NCBI GenBank assembly: GCA_016763715.1
Contig: JAESTG010000301.1
Span: 1 to 5,639, forward strand
Direction: 5' to 3'
DNA from: Flavobacteriaceae bacterium
Lineage (GTDB): Bacteria; Bacteroidota; Bacteroidia; Flavobacteriales; Flavobacteriaceae
DNA length: 5,639 bases
Shown: positions 163-5,639 of the stretch, one piece after another
Numbering within the stretch: position 1 is the first letter of the stretch
How the letters are laid out: each line of letters begins with the position of its first letter
Made by a program: the position numbers and the translations under genes
Notes under the pieces: generated by a model
What the model was told of the DNA's origin: nothing
What the model saw: only the letters and a program-made list of their open reading frames with translations
Database searches by the model: none

Positions 163-201
163 ATGTTACACCCGTAACATATTATGTTACAATAGTTACA
201 G
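163..201 (+). promoter_or_regulatory. Predicted AraC-type operator upstream of the regulator gene
   Basis: ATGTTAC occurs at 163-169 and again at 184-190, a 21-bp period, and a third box GTTACA begins at 195 after four bases. The first box also pairs with GTAACAT (174-180) to form a perfect inverted repeat with a 4-base centre. The boxes lie where the -33 element would be for the -7 element at 222. The same arrangement occurs at 3227-3265 ahead of the next gene cluster. AraC-family proteins are known to use direct repeats of about 21 bp, each monomer contacting two adjacent major grooves. I infer this is the site of the AraC domain encoded directly downstream, giving autoregulation. Confidence 0.7.
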
Positions 202-221
202 CCATAAATAATTGATTCATC

Positions 222-229
222 TAGTATTG
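222..229 (+). promoter_or_regulatory. Predicted -7 element of the regulator gene promoter
   Basis: TAGTATTG matches the Bacteroidota TAnnTTTG -7 consensus except for one base. It starts 27 bases after the start of the last GTTA box and 36 bases before the ATG at 258, the same geometry as the better promoter at 3286. The -33 region is occupied by operator boxes rather than a TTTG element, which suggests dependence on an activator. An alternative -7 candidate, TATCTTTA at 232-239, lies 10 bp further on. Confidence 0.5.
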
Positions 230-257
230 TGTATCTTTAATATAATCCAACCATTGC

Positions 258-995
258 ATGAAAGTAATTTTCATTTTTAGCAGTCTACTCATTTCCGTTT
301 ATAGCCTTGCACAAGAGCAACCCTATGTCGATACCATTAGCACAAAAGATTCTATAAAGATAGCAGCCTACCGTACAAAACTAAGCCAATACGTGAACCC
401 TATTCCCGATAGTGCTATTTTTTATGGTAAAAAAATAAAAGCATTAGTCACCCAATTAAATTACGGCAAGGGTATTGCAGATTCGGATTACTTTTTAGGC
501 ACTTGTTTTAAGCGTGTTCAAAAAAATGATAGTGCAATACACTATTTTAAAAAATCATTAGCACTTTCTGAAAAGCTAGATTATGATATTGGAAAAGGCC
601 GCGCTCACAATAACTTGGGGCGTACGTATTATCTACTAGGCAAAATGGATAGCTCTATTATCGAATGTAAAAAAGCTATATTAAGTATAAAAGAAGATGC
701 GCCAATAGCAAGAATGATTATAGCAGACTCCTACATTGCTCTAGCTACCGCTTATTCTAGAAAAAATGACATGAACAATGCCATAACTCACTTGCTAAAA
801 GTAGATTCTATGCATCAAAAATCTTCTTTAAGACCAGACATTATTGCCGCTGCGTATCAAAATCTTGGCAATATCTATTTAGAATTAGAAGAATTTCCAT
901 CTGCCATTGAGCAATTTAAAAAAGCAAATATTCTATTTGAAAAACTACCTAAAGGGGCGTCACAATTTTATAAAATACTACCAATGTATATTTAG
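258..995 (+). CDS. N-terminal part of a TPR-sensor hybrid two-component regulator (frameshifted)
   Basis: This is the sensor end of the protein that continues in another frame from about 992. Residues 1-18 form a signal peptide (hydrophobic core, then SLA before Q19), so the following part should be exported to the periplasm. Four TPR-like helical pairs follow at about 72-106, 113-147, 154-186 and 197-231, with typical NLGxxY and small-residue positions such as NNLGRTYYLLG and QNLGNIYLELEEF. The frame closes with TAG at 993-995 in helix A of a fifth repeat, which is where the other frame resumes with LGIVYLQSEKIKEA. The start at 258 is chosen because it gives the signal peptide directly and lies 36 bases from the predicted -7 element. 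TPR sensors of this family presumably bind a protein or peptide partner; the signal is unknown. If the frameshift is real, this piece alone would be a secreted TPR protein without kinase. Confidence 0.85.
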   Translation: MKVIFIFSSLLISVYSLAQEQPYVDTISTKDSIKIAAYRTKLSQYVNPIPDSAIFYGKKIKALVTQLNYGKGIADSDYFLGTCFKRVQKNDSAIHYFKKSLALSEKLDYDIGKGRAHNNLGRTYYLLGKMDSSIIECKKAILSIKEDAPIARMIIADSYIALATAYSRKNDMNNAITHLLKVDSMHQKSSLRPDIIAAAYQNLGNIYLELEEFPSAIEQFKKANILFEKLPKGASQFYKILPMYI

Positions 996-997
996 GT
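984..997 (+). other. Frameshift site splitting the regulator gene
   Basis: Frame 0 reads M-Y-I-stop at 984-995, while the -1 frame resumes the TPR consensus at 992 with LGIVYLQ. Adding one A after position 990 gives MYNLGIVYLQ, an uninterrupted TPR helix with the expected Asn before Leu-Gly, so a one-base deletion is the simplest explanation. There is no long homopolymer and no X-XXY-YYZ slippery heptamer, which argues against programmed frameshifting. It may be a real mutation or an assembly error; sequence alone cannot decide. Confidence 0.8.
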
Positions 998-1039
998 ATA
1001 GTCTATTTACAAAGCGAAAAAATTAAAGAAGCAGATAGT

Positions 1040-3199
1040 TTGCTCTCTAATTCCTACACTTATTTTAAGGAAGTTAAAGATCAACGTTTAGTCGCCGAAA
1101 TAGCTATGTTACGTGGTCAATTGGCACTTAAAAAGAATAATCCTATAACAGCAGAAACATTTTTTATTGAAGGTTTCATCATTCATAAAGAGAATGACCA
1201 GCCTTTTGAAGCTGCTCAAGGTGCCCTCGAAATCACCAAACTCGAACTTTATAAAAACAAACCAGAAAAAGCGCTCTTTTATATTGAAGAAGCCAATACG
1301 CTAAACCAAGCTGCCGAAAACAGTAAATTACGGCAAGAACTTCTGTTTTATAAAGCACAGGCATACAGCCAAAAAGGAAATTACAAAGAAGCGTATAGAT
1401 ATAGCAGTCAATCCAAAAAACTAAAAGATTCTTTACAAAAAATCCAAAGTGCAGAAAAAATAAAAGAAATTGAAGGCATCTATCAGACAGAGAGAAGGGA
1501 TAAAGAAATAGCACTTCTTACTTATCAAAAAAAACTAGCCGAAGAACAAAAATCAAATCAACGTAATTTATTTATTGCAGGTATTTCGGTTACCTCCATC
1601 GCAGCATTATTTTTCTTTTTTCAATATATAAATAGGCAAAAAATAAATAAAAAATTACGCGAATTAGACACTGCAAAATCTACCTTTTTTACAAATATTT
1701 CTCACGATTTTAGAACTCCTTTAACGCTCATAAAAGGCCCTATTGAAGATCAATTGGAAGATGCTTCACTAAGCCTGAATAGACGTAAAAACCTAAATGT
1801 AGCGTATAGTAATACAGAGCGGCTAGAAAACTTAGTAGATCAATTAATGTCCCTTTCAAAATTAAACAGCAGTGCAATGCCATTACAAGTACAACCAATA
1901 CTTGTTGACCCTTTTTTACAAGTGTACACGGAGGGGTTTCAATATCAAAGTGAAGAACAAGGGTTTCAATTTTCATTAAACACACAAATAGAAGAAAGCG
2001 AAACATGGTTGGATCAAGATGTCCTCGAGAAAATTTTATATAACCTTTTAGGAAACGCATTAAAATACACTTCAGAGAATGGAAAAATTGAGGTAAACGG
2101 AACTACCAAAATGGGAGTTTTTCAATTAAGTGTTTATAATTCGGCACGAGCACTTTCAGAAAAAGAAAAAGAACTACTATTCACTCGCTTTTATCAAACC
2201 AATACTAAAAATCAAGGCACTGGTATTGGCTTGTCTCTTATAAAGCAATTGGTAACACTGCACAAAGGAACCATTTCAGTAGAAAACGAAAAAGAAGGGA
2301 TTCTATTTACAGTTCATATTCCAACCGAGAAGGCTTTATACAATCCTGATGAAATTTTAAATGAAGCATTACGTGCTAAAACATTGCCTGCAGAAACACT
2401 ACACGAAGAAGACTCACAACTTATAGAAATAAACAATGACGCACCAGTATTACTCGTTGTTGATGACACAAAAGAGATTAGAGATTACATACAAAGTATT
2501 TTTCAGGAAAAGTTTAATGTGTTAATGGCAAAAGATGGAGAAGAAGGGCGAGCTATAGCAAAAGAGCATATACCAGATATAATAATAAGTGACATTGTGA
2601 TGCCAATAATGGATGGTTATGCCCTGACTAAACACATTAAAGAAGATCCAATTACATCTCACATTCCTATTATTCTACTCACAGCAAAAAATAAGGAAGT
2701 AGATCAATTAGAAGCCATGGGTCTTGGAGCAGACATCTATACTACAAAACCTTTTAGCCCTAAACTATTAAGGGCTAATGTTGAAAATCTTATTGAAAAT
2801 AGAAGAAAGTTACAGGAGCGTTTTGCGCAAGAATTAATCCTTACACCTAAAGAAATCGCAGTTACTACAGCTGATGAAGAATTCTTAAATAGACTACAAG
2901 AGGTTTTAAATGAATATCTAACGCAACCAGATTTTACAGCAGCAAAATTTAGTAAAGTGATGCTAATGAATAGAATGCAATTGCACCGCAAATTAAAAGC
3001 ACTAACAGGGCTCTCCTCCTCTGAATTTATAAAAAATCAACGCTTAGTAATGGCTGCACAACTCATAAAAACGAAAGACTTAAATATTTCTGAAGTGGGT
3101 TATAGCATTGGTTTTAATGACCCTTCCTATTTTGCAAAATGTTTTAAGCAAGAATTTGGTGTTTCCCCCAAAGAATTTGCTGTAAAAAACGAAGAATAA
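1040..3199 (+). CDS. Hybrid sensor histidine kinase / response regulator with AraC-type DNA-binding domain (C-terminal part)
   Basis: This is the main body of a one-protein two-component system. Numbering from the TTG at 1040: remaining TPR helices at about 19-130, a charged coiled coil at about 125-175, one membrane helix at 176-197, a HisKA domain with the H-box SHDFRTPL (His222), an HATPase domain with N-box Asn335/Asn339 and GTGIGL at 393-398, a receiver at about 469-590 (acidic pair Asp475/476, phosphoacceptor Asp518, Thr548, Lys570), and an AraC-type helix-turn-helix at about 613-715 ending in the usual YFAKCFKQEFGVSP. The HATPase G1 box lacks the DxGxG pattern and reads YNSARAL at 366-372. 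The frame is coding back to 992, so 1040 is a nominal start and the true protein begins at 258, about 980 residues in all. The fused layout fits cytoplasmic phosphotransfer from His222 to Asp518 followed by promoter binding; the matching operators at 163 and 3227 give its likely targets. Confidence 0.93.
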   Translation: MLSNSYTYFKEVKDQRLVAEIAMLRGQLALKKNNPITAETFFIEGFIIHKENDQPFEAAQGALEITKLELYKNKPEKALFYIEEANTLNQAAENSKLRQELLFYKAQAYSQKGNYKEAYRYSSQSKKLKDSLQKIQSAEKIKEIEGIYQTERRDKEIALLTYQKKLAEEQKSNQRNLFIAGISVTSIAALFFFFQYINRQKINKKLRELDTAKSTFFTNISHDFRTPLTLIKGPIEDQLEDASLSLNRRKNLNVAYSNTERLENLVDQLMSLSKLNSSAMPLQVQPILVDPFLQVYTEGFQYQSEEQGFQFSLNTQIEESETWLDQDVLEKILYNLLGNALKYTSENGKIEVNGTTKMGVFQLSVYNSARALSEKEKELLFTRFYQTNTKNQGTGIGLSLIKQLVTLHKGTISVENEKEGILFTVHIPTEKALYNPDEILNEALRAKTLPAETLHEEDSQLIEINNDAPVLLVVDDTKEIRDYIQSIFQEKFNVLMAKDGEEGRAIAKEHIPDIIISDIVMPIMDGYALTKHIKEDPITSHIPIILLTAKNKEVDQLEAMGLGADIYTTKPFSPKLLRANVENLIENRRKLQERFAQELILTPKEIAVTTADEEFLNRLQEVLNEYLTQPDFTAAKFSKVMLMNRMQLHRKLKALTGLSSSEFIKNQRLVMAAQLIKTKDLNISEVGYSIGFNDPSYFAKCFKQEFGVSPKEFAVKNEE

Positions 3200-3226
3200 A
3201 CACTTCAACACCCTATAAAACAAGGG

Positions 3227-3265
3227 ATGTTACAGGATTACCTTTATATGTTACATACGTTATAA
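3227..3265 (+). promoter_or_regulatory. Predicted AraC-type operator upstream of the envelope-protein operon
   Basis: ATGTTAC at 3227-3233 and 3248-3254 has the same 21-bp period as the boxes at 163 and 184, and GTTATA follows four bases after the second box, as GTTACA does upstream of the regulator gene. Bases between boxes are not conserved between the two copies, so the match is in the boxes and their spacing rather than a duplicated segment. The inverted arm seen at 174-180 is absent here (only a partial ATTAC at 3237-3241), so direct repeats are the shared element. The site starts 28 bases after the regulator stop codon and overlaps the -33 position of the next promoter. Confidence 0.7.
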
Positions 3266-3285
3266 TCAATTGGTTATTACACGAC

Positions 3286-3293
3286 TATGTTTG
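3286..3293 (+). promoter_or_regulatory. Predicted -7 element of the downstream operon promoter
   Basis: TATGTTTG is a full match to the Bacteroidota TAnnTTTG -7 consensus. It starts 27 bases after the start of the last operator box and 35 bases before the ATG at 3321, nearly identical to the regulator gene promoter (27 and 36). No TTTG is found at the usual -33 distance; the only nearby TTG (3270-3272) leaves a 13-base gap, shorter than usual, so activator-dependent transcription is likely. Confidence 0.65.
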
Positions 3294-3320
3294 TGGTGTA
3301 ATTAAGCAAAACCATAAATT

Positions 3321-3557
3321 ATGAAAACGTTATTATCTTATTTTAGGTGGTTAATTTGCAATGAAATTTTTGAAAAAAAAATGTTCGTGAAAACTATTAT
3401 TACCTATAACATTATAGAGAATGATACTTCGCTAGAACTTAATTGTAGCCCAGACTCCTCCTTATCTCTTTATGAGCTACAATCTAGGTATTTCAAAAAA
3501 GAAAATAATTCTTTTCATTTTAGACTGGGTGCAAAAAACAACTTTCAACCTTACTAA
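3321..3557 (+). CDS. Small protein of unknown function, first gene of the operon (possibly frameshifted)
   Basis: A 78-residue product not recognised as any family. The start at 3321 is favoured by its distance from the promoter; an alternative ATG at 3381 follows an A-tract and gives 58 residues beginning MFVKTIITYN. No convincing signal peptide is seen. From about residue 22 the sequence alternates polar and hydrophobic residues, as in beta strands, with one Cys at 42. The stop codon at 3555-3557 overlaps the next ATG as TAATG. Two readings are possible: a coupled pair of small genes, or one gene of about 129 residues broken by a missing base near 3556, since one added base joins the frames. 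The short lengths and the strand-like character of both halves make the second reading credible. Confidence 0.5.
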   Translation: MKTLLSYFRWLICNEIFEKKMFVKTIITYNIIENDTSLELNCSPDSSLSLYELQSRYFKKENNSFHFRLGAKNNFQPY

Positions 3558-3709
3558 TGCCAAAAGGCCAAAAAAAGTATTATGGTGATCTGCCATCACT
3601 ACCTAGAAAGCAGATTTACCTAAATACCAAACATCTTGAAAAGGGAGAATATCTTTTAAAAATTACAGATAAGAATAAGGTCATTAAATACATAACATTT
3701 AGAAAATGA
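3557..3709 (+). CDS. Small 50-residue ORF coupled to its neighbours, or the C-terminal half of the preceding gene
   Basis: The ATG at 3557 overlaps the previous stop (TAATG), and the TGA at 3707-3709 overlaps the next start (ATGA), so the frame exactly fills the gap between two genes. The product begins MPKGQKKYYGDLPSLP, is strongly basic, and ends in a strand-rich segment with HLEKGEYLLKI followed by VIKYITFRK. This ending resembles the L-x-K-G-x-Y-x-L-x-I...K-x-I-x-F-x-K pattern of many Bacteroidota secreted beta-sandwich tails, including type IX secretion sorting domains, but without an export signal on this fragment the resemblance is only suggestive. The frame is open back to 3524, so it may be the end of a frameshifted longer gene starting at 3321. 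Confidence 0.5.
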   Translation: MPKGQKKYYGDLPSLPRKQIYLNTKHLEKGEYLLKITDKNKVIKYITFRK

Positions 3710-4353
3710 AAACAATCATCACTGCAATACTAGTAAGTTCAATCCTCTTTTTTATTGGATGTAAAGAAGAAAAAAAGATACCGGTCAAAAGTGCTACAAA
3801 TACTTCGGAAAACATGCCGACCGAAAACAAGACTGCAAAGACGTTAAAAAACCAAATACTTAAGCAACAAGGTAGTTATACCGAATTATTTAAAAGAGAA
3901 CCCAGGGACTGCGGTTTTATCTCTTCGGAAATATTAGCGGCTTCATTACAAGTCAGTAACGAAATAATTAAACAAGGATATAATACCTGTATCTACAACC
4001 TTACTGAAGAAAATGATAAAAAAACACGATTTTATTTTACCGTAGAGCCGTGGAGTAACAAGAGAATTTTAAAAGAAATAAATATGGCTAAGGATAATGC
4101 TGAAGCTTTTGGCAAAGATTCAAAATTAAGTCAATATAGAATAAGTGAAACAGGTGACACGTATCTATCCATGCACCAGAACAGAATGGTCCGTTTGTTA
4201 AACGAGAAAAGTAATAACGTCATTATTATTTTTTACAATGTGGAGATTGATCCTAGTGATACAGATTATGACAAGAAAAACATGCTTAAAGATATAGCTA
4301 GAGAGCAAGCCTATTCAATTGCAAATTTTCTTTTGAACACTTATAAAAAATAA
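3706..4353 (+). CDS. Lipoprotein of unknown function, possibly surface-exposed
   Basis: A 215-residue protein with a type II signal peptide: a hydrophobic stretch ending FFIGC, with Cys19 as the lipidated residue. The next residues are Lys-Glu-Glu, which match the minimal K-(D/E)2 lipoprotein export signal described for Capnocytophaga, so transport to the outer face of the outer membrane is possible. A Thr/Asn/Lys-rich linker runs to about residue 47. The rest is a compact domain with two cysteines (69 and 95) that could form a disulphide, in the order CGFISSEIL, then CIYNL, a strand-rich middle, and a C-terminal helix. This order recalls small DUF3558-like lipoproteins of other phyla, at the level of fold only. 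The start overlaps the previous stop as ATGA, indicating coupled translation in one operon. No enzyme motif is seen. Confidence 0.88.
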   Translation: MKTIITAILVSSILFFIGCKEEKKIPVKSATNTSENMPTENKTAKTLKNQILKQQGSYTELFKREPRDCGFISSEILAASLQVSNEIIKQGYNTCIYNLTEENDKKTRFYFTVEPWSNKRILKEINMAKDNAEAFGKDSKLSQYRISETGDTYLSMHQNRMVRLLNEKSNNVIIIFYNVEIDPSDTDYDKKNMLKDIAREQAYSIANFLLNTYKK

Positions 4354-4380: not shown

Positions 4381-5639
4381 ATGAAAAATATTATCACCCT
4401 TTGCCTAACTATAGCTATTCTTCTTCTGTGCAACCTCAATAGTTTTGCACAACCTTATACGTTAGATAAGAATGTAATTCCAGAAAAATTAGAACTTCTT
4501 GAAGATAAAAATGTAGAAGGCGCAAAAGGTATTATTAAAAATGCCACGATTGAAGACGAAGATCAGTATTTTTTTATAAAAGGACACGATATGTTTCAGT
4601 TTGTAGATGTATATATTATGGCAAACTATGGCGATCCTTCACTAACGGTTGATCTTGCATATATAAACTGGAATGATGTAGAACAAAAGAAGACCACAAC
4701 ACAAGAAGAAGATGGTATTATTAACTTTAAGCTTCGTGTGCAAGATGCCTTTGGTATTCGTATTTACGCAACAGATGAACCAGTAAATTATACAATTGCA
4801 GTATACGCAAGCGCACCAAGAAAAGAATATTTAGGTACACTTTTTAGAAAGGCTACTCAAAATGATTTAAAGACATCAGCTGCCTCGTTGGTAGTTGATG
4901 GAGGTGACGCAAACAACTCAGGAAATTCTGGATCTTCAAATATGATGCTCTATATTATTTTAGGTATCGCTTTATTAATAATTGGCTTTCTAGCGGCAAA
5001 GTTACTTGGCAAAAATAAAAACACAACCATGTTATTACTATTTCTGCTTACTGGTATTGGTACCGCAAATGCTCAAATGCACAACCAAAATACTTGGGAC
5101 CCTTCTGGAATGGACGGTGGTAGGAGTGGCTCCTATGGTCAATGGTTACAGGGCGAAGCAGAGCAAAACAGAACTGGTAGAGAATATGATGTGAATCAAG
5201 TAAATCAAGGATTAAAAAGGCTTGGAAAGCTTGGTACTCAGTTTGGCAAAGCAGTAGAAACCTATCGCAAAACAAGTGATTTATATGACCAATATAATGG
5301 TTTAGGAAACTGCATGTCTGTAGGGCCACCTCCCGGTATGCCAACTATACCTAGTTTTTGTGAGACAGGAGCATGTGAACAATGTTTTAGCGATGCGAGA
5401 GCGAGTCTAGATAGAAACAGATACACGTTTGAGCAAATGCGTACTATTTACAAATGCTCAAAAAACTTTACTAATAGTGCGATTGCTTTTGGTAATAATG
5501 TTTCTGGTTACCACGGCGTGTCAGGGATGGCTTGGCAAAGTGCGCTTATAGGTATTAAAAAATCTGTGAAGGAATTAGAAACTGCCTATGACAAAAAATA
5601 TATTGAGCTACTTGCAAGTCAAAAAATAATATTACAAGA
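4381..5639 (+). CDS. Large membrane-anchored protein with PPC-like domain and Cys-rich second half (partial, runs off the window)
   Basis: Open from the ATG at 4381 to the window end, 419 residues without a stop. Residues 1-23 are a signal peptide ending SFA before Gln24. Residues 24-165 are a strand-rich domain whose end (GIRIYATDEPVNYTIAVYAS) resembles bacterial pre-peptidase C-terminal beta-sandwich domains. A Gly/Ser/Asn linker leads to a membrane helix at 188-209, a short lysine-containing loop (KNKNTT), then a second hydrophobic stretch at 217-231 ending ANA before Gln232 that looks like another signal peptide. The remainder carries five cysteines (311, 327, 332, 335, 359, including a CxxC), a Pro/Gly-rich stretch and, near the end, long amphipathic helices. 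This suggests two exported proteins fused in one frame, or a hairpin of two helices with both large domains outside the cytoplasm. An internal ATG at 5029 would start the second half alone. It lies 27 bases after the lipoprotein gene with no terminator, so it is probably co-transcribed. No family is recognised with certainty. Confidence 0.88.
   Translation, partial: MKNIITLCLTIAILLLCNLNSFAQPYTLDKNVIPEKLELLEDKNVEGAKGIIKNATIEDEDQYFFIKGHDMFQFVDVYIMANYGDPSLTVDLAYINWNDVEQKKTTTQEEDGIINFKLRVQDAFGIRIYATDEPVNYTIAVYASAPRKEYLGTLFRKATQNDLKTSAASLVVDGGDANNSGNSGSSNMMLYIILGIALLIIGFLAAKLLGKNKNTTMLLLFLLTGIGTANAQMHNQNTWDPSGMDGGRSGSYGQWLQGEAEQNRTGREYDVNQVNQGLKRLGKLGTQFGKAVETYRKTSDLYDQYNGLGNCMSVGPPPGMPTIPSFCETGACEQCFSDARASLDRNRYTFEQMRTIYKCSKNFTNSAIAFGNNVSGYHGVSGMAWQSALIGIKKSVKELETAYDKKYIELLASQKIILQ

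Follow-up and report, generated by a model that had tools for sequence, protein, structure and literature searches.

Predicted operator-promoters with a fixed distance to the -7 element before and behind the gene of a TPR-sensor hybrid two-component system in Flavobacteriaceae

In Bacteroides, hybrid two-component systems (HTCS) and extracytoplasmic function (ECF) sigma pairs are described as controlling polysaccharide loci more often than any other type of regulator (PMC11501099). For 16 HTCS of B. thetaiotaomicron, the predicted operators are direct repeats with a mean spacing of 21 bp (Ravcheev et al. 2013, PMC3878776), which lie before operons near the HTCS gene and are predicted to be bound by a dimer on one face of the DNA. 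That study was unable to predict a binding motif for 20 of the 36 HTCS of this species, and its accessible part mentions neither autoregulation of HTCS nor any fixed spacing of operator and -7 element. Here we describe a stretch of 5,639 nucleotides from a Flavobacteriaceae bacterium (contig JAESTG010000301.1, referred to as the window), in which an HTCS-like regulator gene and the operon downstream of it are each preceded by direct repeats 21 bp apart. While this box geometry is already known in kind, the B. thetaiotaomicron HTCS serve polysaccharide utilisation and possess a large carbohydrate-sensing domain, whereas the window regulator has a TPR sensor, is followed by a putative surface-protein operon and carries a site at its own promoter. 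It is highly probable that the TPR-sensor HTCS encoded between the two regions uses both as operator-promoters, which work as an activation switch.

The spaced pattern ATGTTAC-N14-ATGTTAC-N4-GTTA occurs twice in the window, at 163–198 and 3227–3262. A sequence-only reading had placed five elements in each region, and all ten coordinates are correct: ATGTTAC at 163 and 184, GTTACA at 195, TAGTATTG at 222 and ATG at 258 before the regulator gene, and ATGTTAC at 3227 and 3248, GTTATA at 3259, TATGTTTG at 3286 and ATG at 3321 before the downstream operon. The start of the -7 element is 36 nt from the ATG in the upstream region and 35 nt in the downstream region, as had been given, while the gap between GTTAyA and the -7 element measures 21 bases (201–221 and 3265–3285) instead of the 22 claimed. 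GTTAyA was correctly positioned, but instead of forming a separate third element it makes up the latter half of repeat unit two. This unit of 16 nt consists of TGTTACA (A box), 3 nt and a looser half (B box), and it is repeated with a period of 21 bp. In both copies the -7 element begins 37 nt after the proximal TGTTACA.

All features lie on the forward strand. Before the regulator gene, the distal unit spans 164–179 (A box TGTTACA 164–170, B box GTAACA 174–179) and the proximal unit 185–200 (A box TGTTACA 185–191, B box GTTACA 195–200), followed by the -7 element TAGTATTG at 222–229 with a putative +1 near 234. Before the downstream operon, the corresponding units are located at 3228–3243 (A box TGTTACA 3228–3234, weak B box TTACCT 3238–3243) and 3249–3264 (A box TGTTACA 3249–3255, B box GTTATA 3259–3264), and the -7 element TATGTTTG at 3286–3293, an exact TAnnTTTG, has a putative +1 near 3298. 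TAnnTTTG is the -7 element of the primary promoter in Bacteroidota (PMC7366714, PMC9723704), and an element of the form TAnnwTTG sits about where expected in both promoters of the window. A sigma70-type promoter scan of the window is uninformative for this phylum. An Rfam search of the window returned nothing at gathering thresholds, and a plasmid search found no similar DNA. Within 163–190, GTAAC arms stand in inverted orientation with respect to the boxes of the direct repeat (ATGTTAC-N4-GTAACAT and GTAACATA-N-TATGTTAC).

The sequence appears AT-rich by eye, which might favor a chance arrangement of AT-rich hexamers. This explanation is practically negligible, since the spaced pattern did not occur in any of 200 dinucleotide shuffles of the window, 3000 first-order Markov copies contained no full pattern and a single two-box pattern, and the arrangement is kept in orthologues. 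A recent promoter duplication, leaving two copies without functional message, would account for boxes and spacing being identical within one window. Yet the flanks are indeed largely different, as the sequence-only reading had stated: 14 of 41 non-box positions agree (34%) compared with 29.5% expected from composition (first 67 positions). This near-chance agreement leaves no clear trace of a recent duplication, and both copies with diverged flanks are also present in two relatives (L001/L089 and L090). Recent duplication is therefore very improbable; an old duplication followed by selection is possible.

For comparison, 397 genomes of the same family were searched with the sensor part of the regulator protein. 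Among the 20 matches, 18 are regulators of 980–1011 aa that reach the AraC domain, and these orthologues were chosen by protein similarity alone; in the two others (L106 and L108), which are shorter proteins, the AraC-domain region and an operator were not found. A two-box operator with 0–2 mismatches of 14 is located 19–145 nt past the regulator stop codon in 17 of the 18 full-length orthologues, down to about 36% identity. In the 18th (L103, G190), an exact operator lies 3.0 kb further on, behind a second HTCS gene in tandem. L001 contains both sites in the form TGTTAC-N15-TGTTAC, their flanks being different. The second half of the unit reads GTTACA, GTTATA or GTCATA in near relatives.

The distance to the promoter is kept as well. 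In all 25 loci with a downstream operator, a -7 element (TAnnTTTG with at most one mismatch) begins at offset 37 from the first base of the proximal TGTTACA (16 exact, nine with one mismatch), and between 0 and 112 no other offset has a -7 element in more than two of the 25 loci. Seven of these loci (L079, L080 and L082–L086) were chosen because they carry the operator. The remaining 18, comprising the window and 17 orthologues, were not so chosen, and the rule holds in each of them (12 exact, six with one mismatch). That the downstream copy is kept in these orthologues, with an identical distance to the -7 element in every case, suggests selection rather than duplication, as had been proposed from the window. 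Based on the published placement of the -7 element at -12 to -5 (PMC9723704), the proximal unit would cover about -49 to -34 and the distal unit about -70 to -55. The AraC domain had been suggested to occupy the -33 position; the proximal operator unit, ending at about -34, would adjoin this position rather than lie on it.

The exact pattern TGTTACA-N14-TGTTACA was found in 9 of 59 relatives, several sites being located directly behind HTCS stop codons, compared with 4 of 59 for the reversed pattern (control by our own count). The full pattern with N30 to the -7 element and up to two mismatches is present in 130 of 397 family genomes, the reversed control in 12 (own count). With the -7 element shifted by 5 bp, 40 of 397 genomes match compared with 28 for the reversed control (own count), and some of the 40 harbor true operators that fit the shifted pattern via mismatches. 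Exact matches number at least 35 at the correct -7 distance, and there are none among the matches listed for the shifted pattern (own count). By our own reading, 16 of 30 full-pattern loci among the matches listed are preceded by an HTCS C-terminus that has the same orientation and lies no more than about 530 nt away. With up to two mismatches, the full pattern has two matches in the relative G001, two in G006 and one in G007. The two in G001 equal the number expected from the two known copies, which is consistent with the proposed dedicated operator. The genome scan that had been suggested with the ATGTTAC form was made in relatives: the exact ATGTTAC form has no match in G001 because its first A is not conserved there, while the TGTTACA form is. 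In addition, 12 viral contigs from IMG/VR (L002–L013) hold the exact spaced pattern, as judged from their sequence alone.

The regulator gene consists of two open parts. The first (258–995) encodes TPR repeats according to Pfam, and the second (1040–3199) HisKA, HATPase_c, Response_reg and HTH_18 (AraC) domains. An intact orthologue of 980 aa is encoded in L001, which derives from a metagenome-assembled genome labelled uncultured Ulvibacter. The product of 258–974 is 73% identical to residues 1–239 of this protein and the second open part is 76% identical to it. HisKA, HATPase, receiver (REC) and AraC-type helix-turn-helix (HTH) domains are combined in one polypeptide in the L001 orthologue and in five other loci that were typed. 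In Pfam, the sensor part matched TPR-type families only in the window regulator, L001 and these five loci, and no large carbohydrate-sensing domain was found; domain typing covered L079, L080, L103, L105 and L107, with the TPR score of L080 just under the cut-off. At the N-terminus, a putative signal peptide and one hydrophobic stretch, both judged by eye, accompany the TPR domain. The architecture thus appears to be that of an HTCS, which we name a TPR-sensor variant and not a standard member because TPR families replace the large carbohydrate-sensing domain. The closest structure by sequence is a solved HTCS fragment (12aw). Inhibition between REC and the DNA-binding domain has been described for HTCS with an S/CHIP-DK motif (PMC11253607). 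By sequence comparison, the window protein shares the SHIP part of S/CHIP, located in TSHIPIILL of the α3-β4 loop of REC, and the AraC-type output. The NCBIfam model NF053520 for FimS-type histidine kinases matches both open parts with 22.3 and 99.3 bits, far short of the cut-off of 600. FimS has a TPR sensor, too, but the window protein additionally carries REC and AraC domains.

The codons at 2969–2995 encode NRMQLHRKL, the predicted recognition helix in the first of the HTH motifs of the AraC-type domain. For a set of 104 distinct HTCS C-termini, part of which was chosen for the operator, an operator was called at up to three mismatches behind the gene. MQLH is present in the first recognition helix of all 41 operator-bearing HTCS and in one of 63 without operator. 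This single exception is L103, whose operator sits further on. The assumption that the AraC domain at the end of the regulator is the binder is probably correct, as the operator tracks the HTCS genes and the MQLH signature, with weaker agreement in a further sample described below. Binding by another AraC or HTCS protein of the same genome, with the adjacent regulator as a mere neighbor, is conceivable since these genomes contain many HTCS-like matches and a motif can be common to paralogues (PMC3878776). We regard it as unlikely, because in 17 of 18 genomes it is the orthologous regulator that the operator directly follows, several exact two-box sites in the nine relatives that have them follow right after HTCS stops, and G001 has no more than its two full-pattern sites at up to two mismatches.

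In the preferred activation switch, the periplasmic TPR sensor would signal to the kinase, which would phosphorylate the fused receiver domain and thereby free the AraC-type DNA-binding domain. Two such domains would bind in tandem, one to each 16-nt unit of TGTTACA and a looser half such as GTyAyA. The units are 21 bp or two helical turns apart, so that both domains would be located on the same face of the DNA. The proximal unit would end at about -34, beside region 4 of the sigma factor, and the exact distance of 37 nt to the -7 element would allow the bound protein to recruit the polymerase. An operon for cell-surface or secreted proteins would be switched on, and in the lineage of the window also the regulator's own gene, resulting in positive feedback.

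The copy before the regulator gene was compared in 21 loci (the window, the 18 orthologues, L079 and L080) by scanning from -400 to +150 around the regulator start. It was found in six of them, namely the window, L089, L090, L091, L079 and L103, and is thus rarer than the downstream boxes when both intergenic regions are compared in relatives. Two full boxes with a 21-bp period are present in the window, L089 and L090. The L091 copy has a period of 22 bp and one mismatch, and in L079 and L103 the distal box is degenerate but the proximal box and GTAACA are retained. All six copies have TAnnATTG at offset 37. In each of them one arm, GTAAC, is inverted, in contrast to none of 20 downstream distal units compared. 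The regulator might activate the downstream operon and repress its own gene, with the upstream copy as a negative-feedback site. The inverted arm would agree with this, as would the weaker upstream -7 element, and autorepression is frequent among regulators. The upstream phase of 37 nt, however, is the same as downstream in all six loci, which is the layout of an activator beside -33 and not of a protein covering -7 or +1. Own-gene repression is thus a doubtful alternative to self-activation.

Several observations weigh against the activation switch. The regulator frame is split in the window, and homology to L001 changes frame at 974, indicating one break near there; the circuit may therefore not work in the window sequence itself. 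Genuine decay and a sequencing error would look alike in this sequence. The scan from -400 to +150 detected no upstream copy in 15 of the 21 loci. The -7 element of this copy, TAnnATTG, is one mismatch off the consensus, and its inverted GTAAC/GTTAC arms are not needed by an activator. Relatives differ considerably in the B box of the unit. The HTCS BT1754 of B. thetaiotaomicron is described as having a low, constitutive promoter of its own that does not respond to fructose (PMC3404733). Since the upstream copy is confined to a minority of loci and the BT1754 promoter is unresponsive to the signal, autoregulation is not typical, and self-regulation is predicted as probable in a minority of lineages. 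Moreover, the operator-bearing HTCS are essentially one clade (43 leaves hold all 41), so that signature and operator share descent and their association is not independent evidence. A further sample of 55 HTCS, taken as best matches in 395 genomes of the phylum outside the first set, had an operator in 6 of 12 MQLH HTCS and in 3 of 43 others (Fisher p 0.002). The six MQLH HTCS without operator nearby count against a simple recognition code. Taken together, the sequence-only reading appears right in substance: the sites are presumably a known kind of HTCS operator on an unusual HTCS, with a rigid distance to the promoter.

Does the spacing apply to HTCS in general? The DNA behind the genes of 105 HTCS without TGTTACA operators (58 of 60 first-scanned regions, 45 later ones and two others) was scanned for any 16-nt direct repeat ahead of a -7 element, comparing a lag of 21 with 23 other lags. 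The strongest lag was 21. With offsets of 35–39, at least 12 of 16 matches and at most one mismatch in the -7 element, it was found in 9 of 105 HTCS compared with 0–2 for each other lag, and with an exact -7 element in 4 of 105 compared with 0–1. A looser cut of 11 of 16 gave 13 for lag 21 and 0–6 for other lags, and the best cell of the scan was lag 21 at offset 38. HTCS with unrelated boxes thus weakly share the 21/37 phase. The effect is distinct but confined to few loci, which is the outcome to expect if the targets of many HTCS lie elsewhere. We consider it an even question whether HTCS-activated promoters throughout Bacteroidota follow one rigid design with any letters, in which two 16-nt units are 21 bp apart, the proximal one starts 37 and ends 21 nt before the -7 element and tandem AraC domains replace the -33 element, with MQLH as the sequence of the first recognition helix in HTCS of the TGTTACA class and some TPR-sensor HTCS switching themselves on by positive feedback.

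A limited literature search, based on the accessible parts of the papers, retrieved no statement of a fixed distance between HTCS operator and -7 element. Titles retrieved for TGTTACA look unrelated among the matches listed, and PMC12125979 deals with a XylR-like regulator of Vibrio instead of HTCS operators. If the fixed distance is general, target promoters could be found from sequence without knowing the recognised letters, and a helix signature tied to a known box would begin a recognition code. In the window, the HTCS layout is combined with a TPR sensor and a putative surface-protein operon, and self-activation is probable in some lineages.

Behind the downstream promoter, the first open frame (3321–3557) is short, and its continuation in a different frame is conceivable (3321–3708). 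At the equivalent position, L089, L090 and L091 encode a protein of 362–367 aa, and L001 a secreted protein of 367 aa with DUF7452 and Por_Secre_tail, a type IX sorting tail. Homology of the short frame to this L001 protein was not demonstrable (best E 0.19). The next gene of the operon (3706–4353) encodes a putative lipoprotein of 215 aa, judged by eye, which belongs to similarity cluster c8. It is followed by a putative membrane protein (4381–5637) that extends past the end of the window, has a 95% identical relative in L001 and shows a weak DUF4064 match below the cut-off; no relative of it was found in the viral contigs. At the other edge of the window, within 1–125, a peptide encoded at 37–123 with an in-frame TGA at 34–36 had no match in Pfam or the plasmid search; it may resemble the end of an IS3-type transposase. 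Behind the L001 regulator, the DUF7452/type IX tail protein is accompanied by a lipoprotein candidate, a protein whose DUF4064 match is sub-threshold, an OmpA protein and one bearing an endosialidase-chaperone domain. Several similarity clusters of these genes recur behind other orthologues of the regulator. The endosialidase-chaperone-domain protein (L001 13226–15439) belongs to cluster c5, which is also found behind regulators in L079, L080, L094 and L097 and is sometimes the first gene after the operator.

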